From a virus, in the IMG/VR virus record IMGVR_UViG_3300025102_000304, positions 1 to 23,206 of that record: a stretch of DNA of 23,206 bases; one strand, 5' to 3'. The notes beneath the pieces are model-generated. The model had not been told where the DNA came from, searched no databases, and worked only from the letters and a program-made list of their open reading frames with translations. This document shows, one piece after another, positions 2,139 through 17,612 of this stretch. Each line of letters starts with the position of its first letter. Positions within the stretch are counted from its first letter, which is position 1. A program made the translations under genes and the position numbers.

Positions 2139-3029
2139 ATGAAAATTTTCAAGTTTATAACTGAATCTCTTAGACAAATTACTCAATTAGCAATATTTTC
2201 AATCCTTTTACTCACATCTATAATAATTTATATATCAACATACCCAACTGATAGACAACCAATACCTGATGAATTTGATATTCATATGCACGTAACCAAT
2301 GATACGGTTATGTATACCACTAAAATAGATACTCAATTGGTATACGCCGGTAGATATGATACAATTCCTACCGAAATTCCTAAGAAAAACATCAAGTTAT
2401 CGAAATATTTATCTAATGGAGCTCCACGAAATCGAACTTGGTTGACTTACAAAGAATGGAAAGGTAGTCATTGTAAGTCATTTAAACAACGTAAAGCGTT
2501 CAAAGAGTGGAAATCTCATCAAATAGATAGTTTTATTAACTATATGTCATTTGCCGCGGTGGTTGAATCAATAATATTTCCAGATATTCCACCAGAACTT
2601 ATCGTTGCTCAATCAATTTTAGAGTCAAATTTCGGTAAATCACGATTAGCATCAGAGGCAAACAACTTTTTTGGCCATAAATACAATGGAAGTAACAAAC
2701 ATTTATTCGTTGTTGCCGCCGATGATACACCAAATGACCGATTTACGAAGTATCGCTCACTCTGGTTCTCAATTCGTGGACATAGTAAAATACTAATGAA
2801 TCGTTATAGAAAGAGAATCAAAGGTGAACCAAACCTAAATAATTGGTTATATGCCCTATGTGGTGGTTTAACAGTTGAACAAAGTAAAAAATGGAGGGCT
2901 AGAGGTAACTCGGTATATGCTACATCGTGTATGACAGATGTATGTTACTCTCAAAAACTAAGAAGTATTATAAATATTTATTCATTAACAGAACGTTGTT
3001 CTAATTTTACAAAAATAGGAAATGTATGA
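2139..3029 (+). CDS. Membrane-anchored glucosaminidase-type muramidase (GH73-like)
   Basis: The product probably cleaves peptidoglycan glycan strands, as lysis enzyme or envelope remodeller. An N-terminal signal anchor (about residues 15-35, AIFSILLLTSIIIYIST) places the rest in the periplasm. The C-terminal half has the glucosaminidase pattern: AQSILESNFGKS with the likely catalytic Glu162, then NNFFGHKYNG, then RFTKYRSLWFSIRGHSKIL. I chose the ATG at 2139 over the upstream in-frame TTG/ATG at 2103-2106. It follows the previous stop by 10 nt, and the longer form would push a polar stretch ahead of the anchor. The gene overlaps the next start by 4 nt. A signal-anchor endolysin would be exported by the host without a holin pore; this is inference. 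Confidence 0.85.
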   Translation: MKIFKFITESLRQITQLAIFSILLLTSIIIYISTYPTDRQPIPDEFDIHMHVTNDTVMYTTKIDTQLVYAGRYDTIPTEIPKKNIKLSKYLSNGAPRNRTWLTYKEWKGSHCKSFKQRKAFKEWKSHQIDSFINYMSFAAVVESIIFPDIPPELIVAQSILESNFGKSRLASEANNFFGHKYNGSNKHLFVVAADDTPNDRFTKYRSLWFSIRGHSKILMNRYRKRIKGEPNLNNWLYALCGGLTVEQSKKWRARGNSVYATSCMTDVCYSQKLRSIINIYSLTERCSNFTKIGNV

Positions 3030-3856
3030 AACAAACAGTAACTTACCACGAAATCACTCAGAAATTGAGGGATTTTTTTTTATCTAAAGGGTATGTAGAA
3101 GTACCTTCACAAAGTAGAAAATCAATTTTAGCGGCATGTGAGAACCCACATTCAGTTGCGACATTTACATACGATGGTGTGGTTTGGCCTTTACCACAAA
3201 CGGGTCAGATGTGGTTAGAGTATGAACTACTCAAGAATCCAGATTGGAAAGGGTGTTTCTGTGTATCGACATCTTACAGAAATGAGAAAGACCCAATTCC
3301 TGGTAGACATGAAAAGATTTTCCCTATGTTTGAGTTTGAGTCAAAAGGTAATTTTGATGATTTAAGAAAGCTTAACATTGAATTAACAGAATACTTAGGA
3401 TTTGATACACCTAAACAAATTGACTATGATACAACAAGTGAGAGATATGCCGCACCTATCTTAGAGGATGAACACGAATCAAGAATGTGGCAAGAGTTGG
3501 GTCATTCAATATCATTGGAAACATTTCCTATTAGAACATCACCATTTTGGAATATGAAGTATATTGGTGATGGTAAATTCAACAAATGTGATATCATACT
3601 ATTTGGACAAGAAACATTTGGAACTGCTGAACGTAGTTGTAGTGCTGAAGAGATGAGAAACTTTTTCTATACCATTATGGACGGAACATATTGTGAGAAA
3701 CTATTTGAACTGTTTGGTAAAGAAAGAGTAGAGGCAGAGTTAGAAGAGTTCCTATCATATGATTTCTTCCCACGATTTGGTGGTGGTATAGGTCTAACAA
3801 GATTAGGAAGAGCATGGGAAATGTTAAAGGAAGAAAAACAACCTGAGTTGGTGTAA
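3026..3856 (+). CDS. Class II aminoacyl-tRNA synthetase-like enzyme (AspRS/AsnRS type) without an anticodon domain
   Basis: The product is a stand-alone class II catalytic core of the Asp/Asn/Lys subgroup. Residues 55-68 (PLPQTGQMWLEYEL) match the active-site segment before motif 2. Motif 2 is SYRNE (Arg85, Glu87) with RHEKIF (Arg94, His95) and EFE. Residues 193-203 are FGQETFGTAER, and motif 3 is GGGIGLTRL (Arg259). At 276 aa it lacks the N-terminal OB-fold anticodon-binding domain. Known trimmed relatives include archaeal-type asparagine synthetase derived from AspRS, and enzymes that aminoacylate other targets. It could therefore make asparagine or modify an RNA or protein rather than charge a tRNA for translation. 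It overlaps the muramidase stop by 4 nt and ends at a strong terminator. Enzyme class is secure; substrate is not. Confidence 0.85.
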   Translation: MKQTVTYHEITQKLRDFFLSKGYVEVPSQSRKSILAACENPHSVATFTYDGVVWPLPQTGQMWLEYELLKNPDWKGCFCVSTSYRNEKDPIPGRHEKIFPMFEFESKGNFDDLRKLNIELTEYLGFDTPKQIDYDTTSERYAAPILEDEHESRMWQELGHSISLETFPIRTSPFWNMKYIGDGKFNKCDIILFGQETFGTAERSCSAEEMRNFFYTIMDGTYCEKLFELFGKERVEAELEEFLSYDFFPRFGGGIGLTRLGRAWEMLKEEKQPELV

Positions 3857-6516: not shown

Positions 6517-6844
6517 GGGGATGACTGGAATTGACAGGTTGATGGAAGTTCTAAGTTCAGTATGGGTGATGACCTACATCAAACTTTTAAGTGGCAACAC
6601 TTCTTATGCAATGGCTGCCTAATTAGGTAAGTATTGTACACCATATCATTGAGTATGCTTGTAGATGGGTTAGGTGTAAAAGGAAGCAGATGGTATGATA
6701 AGGTAATGATAGAAAACCGTTAAACATCCTATTGTTTATTAATCCTATCAGTTTTGGAAGTTTAGAAAAACTTATCCTAATACTGTAAAAGACTTATTAT
6801 GGAAACATCTCTGGACGTGGGTTCGACTCCCACCATCTCCACCA
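6517..6844 (+). ncRNA. ssrA: Transfer-messenger RNA (tmRNA)
   Basis: A complete one-piece tmRNA of 328 nt. The 5' end GGGGATG pairs with CATCTCC near the 3' end, including the G3-U70 wobble that marks it for alanylation. The 5' half continues ACTGGAATTGACAGG, as in tmRNAs. The T arm is GTGGG-TTCGACT-CCCAC, and the 3' end ACCA is encoded. The tag frame at 6593-6622 ends in YAMAA. The molecule should rescue stalled ribosomes and tag the peptide for proteolysis, using host AlaRS and SmpB. It lies alone between a phage permease gene and a small ORF with its own promoter. Few phages are known to carry tmRNA. No SmpB gene is seen in this window. Confidence 0.95.
6593..6622 (+). other. tmRNA tag reading frame: GNTSYAMAA, stop
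   Basis: The frame GGC AAC ACT TCT TAT GCA ATG GCT GCC TAA encodes GNTSYAMAA, with the resume codon GGC preceded by AGT. Bacteroidota tags commonly end YALAA. Here the Leu of the degradation signal is Met, and the second residue is Asn rather than Glu. The hydrophobic-Ala-Ala end should still be read by ClpXP-type proteases. Confidence 0.85.
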
Positions 6845-6913: not shown

Positions 6914-7168
6914 ATGAATTGGGATTCTGTAAATATAAGTGATAAAATACAATGGTTAAAGAGTGTTGTAATGAACTCTACACATTATGTATCGGATGAT
7001 GAACATATATTAAATGCACTTATTACAGGTTCTACTAATACTTTTAGTGGTGATATTGGATTTGATATACAATCACATCATATAGAGTTTATGAGAAAAT
7101 TATGGGATAAGCATATAAAAACGCAAAAAGATAATACAATCATACACAAAATGCGAAAGAGGAGTTAA
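6914..7168 (+). CDS. Hypothetical protein, 84 aa, ending inside a cloverleaf RNA
   Basis: Unknown function. It is hydrophilic and probably alpha-helical, with a MNWDSVNISDKIQWLKSVV start and a HHIEFMRKLWDKHIK helix. Composition (four His near 60-75, three Trp) is reasonable for a real protein. The ATG is only 6 nt beyond the -7 box, so translation would start at or next to the mRNA 5' end. The last five codons and the stop (TAA at 7166-7168) lie inside the first cloverleaf RNA (7153-7223). Processing of that RNA at its 5' end would remove the stop codon and leave a nonstop message. It could also be a chance frame in the RNA leader. Confidence 0.55.
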   Translation: MNWDSVNISDKIQWLKSVVMNSTHYVSDDEHILNALITGSTNTFSGDIGFDIQSHHIEFMRKLWDKHIKTQKDNTIIHKMRKRS

Positions 7169-7223
7169 GAGAAACTCGCTACACATCCAGTGTAGAGAAG
7201 TTGGGGCAGTTCCAACCTTTCGC
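7153..7223 (+). ncRNA. tRNA-Gly-like cloverleaf RNA, copy 1
   Basis: A 71-nt element with tRNA geometry. Acceptor stem GCGAAAG/CTTTCGC (7 bp), 2 nt, D-like arm GAGTT-AAGAGA-AACTC, G26, anticodon-like arm CTACA-CATCCAG-TGTAG, 4-nt variable region, T-like arm GTTGG-GGCAGTT-CCAAC, then T73. The Gly identity set known from E. coli is present: G1-C72, C2-G71, G3-C70, U73 and C35-C36 within UCC. Canonical tRNA features are missing: position 8 is A, 33 is A rather than U, the D loop has no GG, and the T loop is GGCAGTT rather than TTCRANY. CCA is not encoded. Copy 2 shares all loops but has different, compensated stems. It is unlikely to decode, so its role is open. Confidence 0.75.
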
Positions 7224-7229
7224 TCAAAT

Positions 7230-7300
7230 GCGGGAAAAGAGTTAAGAGAAACTCGTTGTACATCCAGTACAAAGATGGTGGGGCAGTTCCACCTTCCCGC
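7230..7300 (+). ncRNA. tRNA-Gly-like cloverleaf RNA, copy 2
   Basis: Also exactly 71 nt, 6 nt after copy 1. Acceptor GCGGGAA/TTCCCGC followed by T73 equals the acceptor stem of E. coli tRNA-Gly(GCC). Then AA, GAGTT-AAGAGA-AACTC, G, TTGTA-CATCCAG-TACAA, AGAT, GGTGG-GGCAGTT-CCACC. Against copy 1, the acceptor, anticodon-like and T-like stems change on both strands so that every pair is kept, while the loops AAGAGA, CATCCAG and GGCAGTT are identical. That pattern is direct evidence of a selected RNA fold. U8, U33, the D-loop GG and the TTC T-loop are absent here too. Transcription is probably from the promoter at 6878-6908, and 3' trimming plus CCA addition would be needed for charging. Confidence 0.75.
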
Positions 7301-7318
7301 TCTAAATAATTTAATATA

Positions 7319-7726
7319 TTGAATTTAATATCAACACATCCAATTAAAAAATCCGACTTAGGATTTCACTCAAACCTATTCGGTGGAAAGTTATTGGCTT
7401 GGTTAGATGCTGCAGGAGCTGCCTATGCAATGGAAGTTACTGATACTCCACGAATCGTTACTATTAAAATAGATGAATGTATTTTTAAGAAACCTGCACG
7501 AGAGGGCCAGTTGATTAAAATCTATGGGTCTGTTTTTGATATAGGTACTACATCCCTTACTTTATACTTAGAGGCTAGGGCACATAACGTATACTCTGGC
7601 ACTCAAACCACAGTATTATCAACTAAAATAAAATTTGTTAGGATTGATGAAAACAATGACCCTATCCCAATTTCAGAGCGAGTTAAAAACAAGTATCGTG
7701 ATGAGATTGAAAAAAACAAATCTTAA
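7319..7726 (+). CDS. Acyl-CoA thioesterase-like hotdog protein (YciA/BACH type)
   Basis: The product likely hydrolyses acyl-CoA to free fatty acid and CoA in the cytoplasm. STHPIKKSDLGFHSNLFGGKLLAWLDAAGAAYA matches the N-terminal hotdog strand and helix, with the N-x-x-GG-x-LL-x-W-x-D motif (Asp about residue 31). Downstream come FKKPAREGQLIKIYG and TSLTLYLEARA strands. The length of 135 aa is normal. There is no in-frame ATG before the conserved region. The TTG at 7319-7321 follows an in-frame TAA at 7307, so a TTG start is the best choice. It lies 18 nt after the second cloverleaf RNA and may be cotranscribed with it. A thioesterase is unusual in a phage and could alter host lipid metabolism. 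True substrate is unknown. Confidence 0.85.
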   Translation: MNLISTHPIKKSDLGFHSNLFGGKLLAWLDAAGAAYAMEVTDTPRIVTIKIDECIFKKPAREGQLIKIYGSVFDIGTTSLTLYLEARAHNVYSGTQTTVLSTKIKFVRIDENNDPIPISERVKNKYRDEIEKNKS

Positions 7727-14861: not shown

Positions 14862-15776
14862 ATGACGAATTTAGGATACGCATGTATTAACATGACGTTG
14901 GGTAAACAAAAACCCAAAATTACCACCAATCGTAGTATGATTAAACGAACCTTTTTAGAAAGAGGTATTTCATATGCGTCTGAGTTAGGTATACAAAATG
15001 TTAGAGATTTGATAGAGATTATCAAATGGAATCATCAGAATGATATTAACTTTTTTAGGATATCATCTAATATGTTTCCTTGGGCATCTGAGTACAAATT
15101 ATCAGATATGCCACATTACCATCGTATCAGGAATTTATTGATTGGTGCAGGTAACTTAGCTAAGAAGTATAATCAACGTATAACGGCTCATCCTGGTCCG
15201 TTTAATGTATTGGTATCGCCTAATGAAAAAGTTGTTCAGAATACGATTACAGACCTTTCTATACATGGTGAGGTCTTTGATATGATGGGGTTATCACGTA
15301 CACCTTATAACAAATTAAATATTCATTGTAATGGTGTCTATGGTGATAAAAAATCTGCAATGGATAGATTCTGTAAAAACTTTGAAAGACTTCCACATTC
15401 AGTACAATCTCGTCTTACTGTAGAGAATGATGATAAGGCATCTATGTACTCTGTAAAAGATTTGATGTACATACATGAACGAATTGGTATACCTATCGTA
15501 TTTGATTACCACCATCACAAATTCAATACAGGTGGGTTATCTGAAAAAGATGCATTAGAGTTAGCTATGACAACATGGCCTGAAGATATTACACCAGTAG
15601 TGCATTATTCAGAATCTAAATCTTTACATGAGAACAATTCTAAGATTAAGCCACAAGCACATTCAGATTTTATATCTGATACTATTAAGACTTATGGTAA
15701 CAATGTAGATGTAATGGTTGAATCTAAAATGAAGGAATTATCCATTTTACAATACAGACAAACCATCTTGGTATAG
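14862..15776 (+). CDS. uvsE: UV DNA damage endonuclease (UvsE/UVDE)
   Basis: The enzyme nicks DNA immediately 5' of UV photoproducts to start repair. The family pattern is clear across a TIM barrel of normal length (304 aa): NLGYACINMTL at the N terminus, FFRISSNMFPWAS near residues 67-80, ITAHPGPFNVL near 108-118, LTVENDD near 186-192, PIVFDYHHHKF near 209-220, and VVHYSESK near 247-254. These His, Glu and Asp residues are those expected to bind the metal cluster. In a marine phage it would protect packaged or replicating DNA from sunlight damage. The gene has its own TTAACA-type promoter just after a terminator, so it forms a separate unit. Confidence 0.93.
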   Translation: MTNLGYACINMTLGKQKPKITTNRSMIKRTFLERGISYASELGIQNVRDLIEIIKWNHQNDINFFRISSNMFPWASEYKLSDMPHYHRIRNLLIGAGNLAKKYNQRITAHPGPFNVLVSPNEKVVQNTITDLSIHGEVFDMMGLSRTPYNKLNIHCNGVYGDKKSAMDRFCKNFERLPHSVQSRLTVENDDKASMYSVKDLMYIHERIGIPIVFDYHHHKFNTGGLSEKDALELAMTTWPEDITPVVHYSESKSLHENNSKIKPQAHSDFISDTIKTYGNNVDVMVESKMKELSILQYRQTILV

Positions 15777-16979: not shown

Positions 16980-17612
16980 ATGAGTTTGTATAATGATAAC
17001 CGTACATCCACAACTGAATCGGATGTAAACTATACATCGACATCAAAGCAAGAACGTGATAGGTATTTTCAAGAATTTAGAGAATTTGACTATGGTATTG
17101 ATATTAGTGATAATGTTATACTAATACAAGATGATATTCAAACAGGTTTACTATTTGATGTTATATCAAAAGTTAGATTACTCAAAAAGATTAATTCAGA
17201 TTTAAAGTCTGTAACAATATTATTAAATTCAGGCGGTGGTGATGTTGTTGAAACTTTAGGATTAATAGATTACATTCGTTCATTAGATAGAGATGGTATA
17301 AAAACAAATATAGTATGTAGAGGTATGGCTATGTCGGCTGCAGCATTATTGTTAGCATCTGGCACTGGTCTAAGGGCGGCATCTAAACATTCAAAAATAA
17401 TGGTACATCAATTATCATCATTTACGGCTGGTAAGTTATCTGATATAAAATCCAATGCTAGATTCGCTGAACAACTTGAAGAAGATTGTAATCAGATAAT
17501 GGAAGATTGTACTAACAAAGATAAAACTTGGTGGAAAAACACCCAACAAAATGATTATTTTTTAACATCAGAAAAAGCATTAGAATTAGGTATAATAGAT
17601 AAAATAATTTAA
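16980..17612 (+). CDS. clpP: ClpP-like serine protease
   Basis: A 210-aa ClpP-fold protein. ILLNSGGGDVVETLGLIDYI (about 81-100) is the substrate-binding glycine-rich segment. Ser119 lies in GMAMSAAALLLASG, in the place of the catalytic serine, and His143 in KIMVHQ is the catalytic histidine. The C-terminal part TWWKNTQQNDYFLTSEKALELGIIDKI aligns with the region that holds the catalytic Asp. The expected Asp is not clearly present: Asn187 or Thr188 falls nearby and Asp192 is slightly displaced, so activity needs care. It could be a general protease used with host ClpX/ClpA, or a head-maturation protease. Its place next to groES, far from head genes, favours protein quality control. The first 25 residues are polar and probably a propeptide or flexible end. 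Confidence 0.88.
   Translation: MSLYNDNRTSTTESDVNYTSTSKQERDRYFQEFREFDYGIDISDNVILIQDDIQTGLLFDVISKVRLLKKINSDLKSVTILLNSGGGDVVETLGLIDYIRSLDRDGIKTNIVCRGMAMSAAALLLASGTGLRAASKHSKIMVHQLSSFTAGKLSDIKSNARFAEQLEEDCNQIMEDCTNKDKTWWKNTQQNDYFLTSEKALELGIIDKII

Follow-up and report, generated by a model that had tools for sequence, protein, structure and literature searches.

Two tRNA-Gly-like elements in tandem

The window, namely the whole stretch of DNA analyzed here, is an IMG/VR virus record of 23,206 bases that carries two adjacent tRNA-Gly-like elements, the first of which is overlapped by the end of a small open reading frame (ORF) (Table 1). Each element forms a perfect cloverleaf, which consists of a 7-bp acceptor stem, two nucleotides, a D-like arm of 5 bp with a 6-nt loop, one nucleotide, an anticodon-like arm of 5 bp with a 7-nt loop, four nucleotides, a T-like arm of 5 bp with a 7-nt loop, and the discriminator U73. 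A check of the sequence reproduced this geometry and the coordinates (7153-7223 and 7230-7300, before U73) given in a preliminary description. The two elements constitute a 77-nt direct repeat with an identity of 79%. As had been described, the copies diverge in their acceptor, anticodon and T stems while every pair is retained, exemplified by the acceptor stem GCGAAAG/CTTTCGC of element 1 that covaries with GCGGGAA/TTCCCGC of element 2, whereas the three loops are identical, as is the D stem.

Table 1. Coordinates of the elements and other features in the window and in further records
Feature	Record	Coordinates	Strand	Remark
tRNA-Gly-like element 1	window	7153-7224	+	includes discriminator U73 (7224); followed by CAA, without encoded CCA
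Element 1, acceptor stem 5' strand	window	7153-7159	+	GCGAAAG; pairs with 7217-7223 CTTTCGC
Element 1, D-like loop	window	7167-7172	+	AAGAGA; without G18G19
Element 1, anticodon-like loop	window	7184-7190	+	CATCCAG; 34-36 = UCC
Element 1, T-like loop	window	7205-7211	+	GGCAGTT; without TTCRA
tRNA-Gly-like element 2	window	7230-7301	+	includes U73 (7301); followed by CTA
Element 2, anticodon-like loop	window	7261-7267	+	CATCCAG
Element 2, T-like loop	window	7282-7288	+	GGCAGTT
Small ORF, 84 aa	window	6914-7168	+	from the ORF list; TAA stop within the D arm of element 1
Class II synthetase-like gene	window	3026-3856	+	PF00152, phrog_29758
Phage tmRNA	window	6517-6844	+	tag GNTSYAMAA; Rfam 92 bits
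UV endonuclease UvdE	window	14862-15776	+	
ClpP-like protease	window	16980-17612	+	
Intermediate element	L024	5445-5516		T loop TTCAAAT, encoded CCA
Intermediate element	L173	1535-1605		T loop TTCGACT
Intermediate element	L006	4964-5035		T loop TGCGATT
tRNA-Gly beside mom	L249 (Appa)	2157-2231		
tRNA-Gly beside mom	L259 (Phonegingi)	2151-2225		
Mom-like protein	L135	1268-2218	+	

The small ORF has the same end point in L001 and related loci. A phage tmRNA is located just upstream of the elements, and genes for UvdE and a ClpP-like protease lie farther downstream. ARAGORN called only the tmRNA in the window and neither of the elements. Similarly, an Rfam search at E≤10 gave no tRNA or other relevant match for the elements, and the tRNA model RF00005 at the same threshold had no match within positions 7000-7450.

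A structured RNA family not represented in Rfam

The two elements are members of a structured RNA family that is absent from Rfam and previously undescribed. Scanning viral contigs with patterns built on the conserved loops, followed by a structure check, gave 73 unique exact-pattern sequences from contigs of 29-69% GC. More than 100 members were collected altogether. As scans not aimed at the stems of the window elements yielded dozens of homologues, the family extends far beyond chance.

Analysis of 44 distinct and diverse sequences revealed two-sided changes in 17 of the 22 pairs, with 98.7% paired cells and a covariation score of 0.749; shuffled controls reached 0.210, and slid structures did not exceed 0.151. 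Over the family, five of the seven acceptor pairs show two-sided changes. GU wobbles (54) far exceed A-C mismatches (2), which assigns the RNA to the plus strand. The covariance model built from the family, termed R1, gave 113 matches across 79 sources, none of which is an ordinary tRNA; it assigns 92.3 and 94.6 bits to elements 1 and 2, respectively, both of which belong to its training set. At 12 element loci, RF00005 (E≤10) did not match the elements, while the true tRNAs there scored 54-73 bits. No Rfam family was matched by the elements at the gathering score, and a blastn search against isolated phages gave no match. Two of the checks that the preliminary description had proposed, a comparison with Rfam and covariation in homologues, favor its suggestion of a new structured RNA class. 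The covariance model is a tool that annotators lack, as the tRNA finder used here misses nearly all such genes.

Glycine identity is retained, whereas decoding features are lost

The consensus of tRNA-Gly comprises G1-C72, C35, C36 and (G10-Y25):G45, and U73 and C2-G71 are additional determinants (PMC9976931); moreover, U73 protects Gly-tRNA from DTD (PMC6097841). In the 73 members, G1-C72 and C2-G71 are invariant and G3-C70 is almost so. The residues C35, C36, U73, G10, Y25 and G45 are retained across the family, with CC at positions 35-36 in 75 of 75 sequences. The invariance of these positions is in part imposed by the search patterns. However, a scan that left the acceptor and the anticodon loop free returned solely members bearing the glycine identity features. 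Moreover, among the 13 elements that were detected starting from the Mom protein (see below), eight were inspected, all of which have U73, C35 and C36; the Mom-derived members agree with the identity set, with a single exception at G45. The anticodon-like loop follows the pattern C-N-N-CCAG, in which position 33 is variable and U, C or A occurs at position 34. Throughout the model set, C32-G38 is constant, but U-A takes its place in a few members, which makes a sixth pair of the anticodon stem likely.

The loops that form the elbow of a tRNA are replaced. The D-like loop has the consensus (A/T/G)(A)(G/A)AG(A) over the 73 unique members, without GG, and the T-like loop is GGCRGNN in 73 of 73, partly as imposed by the search pattern; in members found via the Mom protein, it is GGCAGTT, GGCGGTT or GTCAGTT. 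TTCRA is found in none of the 73, and U8 in two. The pair 51-63 is U-A, C-G or A-U, but G51-C63 in 0 of 73. By comparison, 119 of 125 neighboring phage tRNAs keep U8, the D-loop GG and the T-loop TTCRA altogether. The absence of U8, the D-loop GG and a TTC-type T loop, as initially described, applies to both copies and to the family consensus, apart from the two members with U8. The reported lack of U33, in contrast, is correct for the window copies but not family-wide, as about 45% of members have U33.

These features resemble the staphylococcal non-proteinogenic tRNA-Gly, the donors for FemX/A/B, which share U73, a glycine anticodon, an altered D loop and T-stem pairs of weak EF-Tu binding (PMC4052509), and have also lost G51-C63 (PMC4052509). 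From the lack of both G51-C63 and the D-loop GG in the 73 members, an escape from EF-Tu is predicted for the present family. There are also differences: the element is phage-encoded, has a GGCRGNN T loop, has lost U8 and shows no sequence-family match to the staphylococcal RNAs. The latter donate an amino acid outside translation (PMC4052509), and the element may do likewise, though with a DNA modification enzyme rather than cell-wall enzymes as the partner.

Compared to ordinary bacterial and phage tRNA-Gly, the element has the same acceptor, anticodon positions 35-36, U73 and G10-Y25:G45, but replaced elbow loops and no match to the tRNA model at E≤10. The two are linked through intermediates. 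The one in L024 has A8A9, the anticodon stem and the variable region of the family, yet its T loop is TTCAAAT and CCA is encoded, whereas those in L173 and L006 have the T loops TTCGACT and TGCGATT, respectively; the T loops of the three are thus canonical or close to it. Through these intermediates the family grades into tRNA-Gly, from which it is descended.

The element lies at the 3' end of mom

All-against-all comparison of the neighboring ORFs outside the T4-like phages pointed to a single protein family right at the element. It is Mom, a phage enzyme that modifies adenine in DNA, namely phrog_1384 “Mom-like DNA modification protein”, and matches PF25680 with 64-178 bits against a cut-off of 27.1. 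In 34 of 35 non-T4-like loci, mom and the element are encoded on one strand, the element overlapping the mom 3' end or adjoining it; this count comprises 33 overlapping or abutting loci and L125, where the element sits deeper within a long ORF, the exception being L078. As these loci were found by RNA patterns alone, the association with Mom was not built into the search. The reverse search, starting from the Mom protein, found an element in 13 of 80 loci, always at the mom 3' end, and none within 3 kb of mom in the other 67. Among 392 genomes of Planctomycetota, two have the element, in three copies altogether, with mom at every copy.

The pairing has outlasted an exchange of the protein. In L046 (5700-6617) and L089 (559-1401), near-identical elements overlap the ends of very different Mom proteins, which are split by a long, fully supported branch, indicating that the type of Mom was swapped while the pairing of element and mom persisted.

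Two cultured Microbacterium phages, Appa and Phonegingi, have a tRNA-Gly ~32 nt past mom on the opposite strand. This tRNA carries A8 where U8 is expected and, like the GC-rich elements, a G7-A66 mismatch, is otherwise canonical, and scores 39.9 bits with R1. It is the sole annotated tRNA of Appa. The anticodons of the two phages differ, being CCC in Appa and UCC in Phonegingi.

Many phages with Mom have no element, hence Mom does not need it. The best score in phage Mu was 7 bits, which is at the chance level, and R1 found no element in ICP1, RaK2, LP-026, P12002L, Melnitz-3 and an Edwardsiella phage, where a too-divergent copy could escape this model. Element-free Moms would use the host tRNA-Gly or a different donor, the element being an accessory in some lineages.

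Element and mom co-occur in T4-like phages

In T4-like phages, the group to which the window belongs, the element is located inside tRNA clusters, tens of kb from mom, which indicates that it acts in trans. Mom (PF25680) was found in 21 of 50 element-bearing records; the 29 without it are nearly all fragments, the largest being G048 (169 kb, three elements). Of the 13 element-bearing records of at least 113 kb, 12 encode mom, compared to 1 of 16 control records of the same minimum size chosen for a different gene (Fisher p=3e-6, an optimistic value as the large records are partly related and not independent lineages). In the large records, two elements are usually accompanied by two tandem mom genes. 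Several element-bearing T4-like phages encode an ordinary tRNA-Gly as well.

The 23-kb fragment in the window has no mom. Its neighboring genes are common to L030, L038 and L042, which derive from phage records of 173-178 kb with two moms and two elements each; the phage of the window may have mom beyond this fragment.

In large T4-like phages (L220, L223, L224, L226, L227, L228, L231 and L233), the two mom genes are diverged and lie near each other, and each has the catalytic Ser. In the 484-kb phage LR756508 (W05), several weak Mom domains lie at ~159-218 kb in ORFs of 500-800 aa, which are probably fusions.

The element-linked Mom and the known Mom base

An AlphaFold model (pLDDT 87.5) of one Mom linked to the element resembles the crystal structure of Mu Mom (PDB 8bv8), with a Z-score of 20.9 over 198 residues. 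In this comparison against the PDB, GNAT acetyltransferases rank below Mu Mom, and no aminoacyl-tRNA transferase is among the matches listed. Ser124 is changed to Ala in the inactive mutant 8bv8; every Mom in the alignment, including the two paralogues, has Ser or Thr at this position. From its fold and Ser124, the element-linked Mom is predicted to be competent. Compared to the com-mom system of Mu, the element-linked Moms belong to the same family PF25680, with the Mu Mom fold and Ser124, but Mu has no such RNA.

The known Mom base, N6-carbamoyl-methyl-adenine, is a derivative of glycinamide. It exceeds adenine by C2H3NO (+57.02), exactly one glycine residue, and is an isomer of N6-glycyl-adenine. 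It is the modified base of Mu and is also named N6-(1-acetamido)-adenine (PMC10286901). For the donor, an acyl-CoA such as glycyl-CoA has been predicted (PMC7824862).

A proposed role as the glycine donor of Mom

We propose, with a probability of roughly 0.7, that the element is a non-decoding tRNA-Gly that is charged by the host and donates glycine to Mom. The element genes, which stem from ordinary tRNA-Gly, would be dedicated to this role, and their RNA would undergo the ordinary tRNA-type end processing, followed by the addition of CCA. The host GlyRS would then charge it with glycine, whereas the loss of U8, of the canonical D and T loops and of pairs favorable to EF-Tu would keep it from translation. 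Mom, which has a GNAT fold, may transfer the glycyl group from the charged element onto an adenine of the phage DNA. The glycyl group might be placed on N6 and then undergo an intramolecular N-to-N migration, a five-membered Smiles-type rearrangement, to give the known Mom base. The modified adenine would eventually shield the phage DNA from restriction. A Mom that depends on Gly-tRNA would favor a dedicated, translation-silenced Gly-tRNA, as staphylococci do for cell-wall glycine (PMC4052509). Among the options of the preliminary description, that of a glycine donor outside translation, listed first, is also supported here, with Mom as the explanatory link and charging as a predicted step.

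A broader version, to which we give somewhat less weight but still consider probable, holds that this is a phage tRNA used solely for DNA modification, from which Mom moves glycine to adenine; a Gly-tRNA would then be the donor for Moms in general, that of Mu included. The donor of Mom has been an open question for decades, and the linkage to the element makes it directly testable. If true, the proposal would join aminoacyl-tRNA chemistry to phage DNA hypermodification, and provide a reason for a tRNA to lose its decoding features and yet stay conserved. Our search of openly readable papers found nothing that links a tRNA to Mom; an earlier published account of the Mom donor, which may exist, would make the donor claim less new while leaving the RNA family unaffected.

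A related precedent is TacT, which has a GNAT fold. TacT-type toxins read tRNA-Gly via U73 and G71 (PMC9976931). They acetylate the tRNA-bound glycine, whereas the element would itself supply glycine, with DNA as the acceptor.

Alternative explanations

The linkage to mom might also reflect control rather than supply. The element could be a regulator or inhibitor of Mom that is never charged, either a tRNA mimic that binds Mom or an mRNA structure that controls mom translation, comparable to Com and mom of Mu. Such a role, which we consider unlikely, would fit the position of the element within the mom 3' end in many loci and the toxicity of Mom expressed out of context (PMC12707154). However, in T4-like phages the element lies in tRNA clusters far from mom and hence would act in trans, and the retained GlyRS identity set, including U73, C35 and C36, would be superfluous for a mere binder of Mom.

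Two further readings, both improbable, take the element as a tRNA of more general use. One is a decoy or spare tRNA-Gly that counters a host defence, for instance an anticodon nuclease, or else a GlyRS sink; it agrees with the location among phage tRNAs in large phages and with the variable position 34, but leaves unexplained why the element is linked to mom, why Mom types were exchanged behind one element, and why small phages that lack other tRNAs carry it as a single copy. Our analysis found nothing in favor of the decoy for GlyRS or an anticodon nuclease that the preliminary description had also listed. The other, equally doubtful, is a divergent tRNA-Gly that translates phage genes, to which the glycine anticodons NCC throughout, the partial retention of U33 and the location in tRNA clusters would be suited; it conflicts with the ordinary tRNA-Gly encoded by several of the same phages, and with the loss of elbow features that the neighboring tRNAs retain.

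The idea that the class II synthetase-like protein of the window charges the elements as an orthogonal pair, prompted by a gene 3.3 kb upstream with 27.5 bits to PF00152, is largely refuted by co-occurrence, as the protein is encoded in 0 of 50 element-bearing records and a clear element is present in just 1 of 39 synthetase-bearing records.

The synthetase-like protein, which comprises a catalytic core, has at least 598 viral relatives and shares 44-56% identity with the “tRNA ligase” of Prochlorococcus phages P-SSM2/5/7 and of megaphages. In L135, the Mom-like protein is encoded directly upstream of a close relative of this gene with 88% identity. In P-SSM5 and P-SSM7, a tRNA-Asn of 85-86 nt, longer than usual, directly follows the “tRNA ligase” gene, and the two possibly form a phage AsnRS/tRNA pair.
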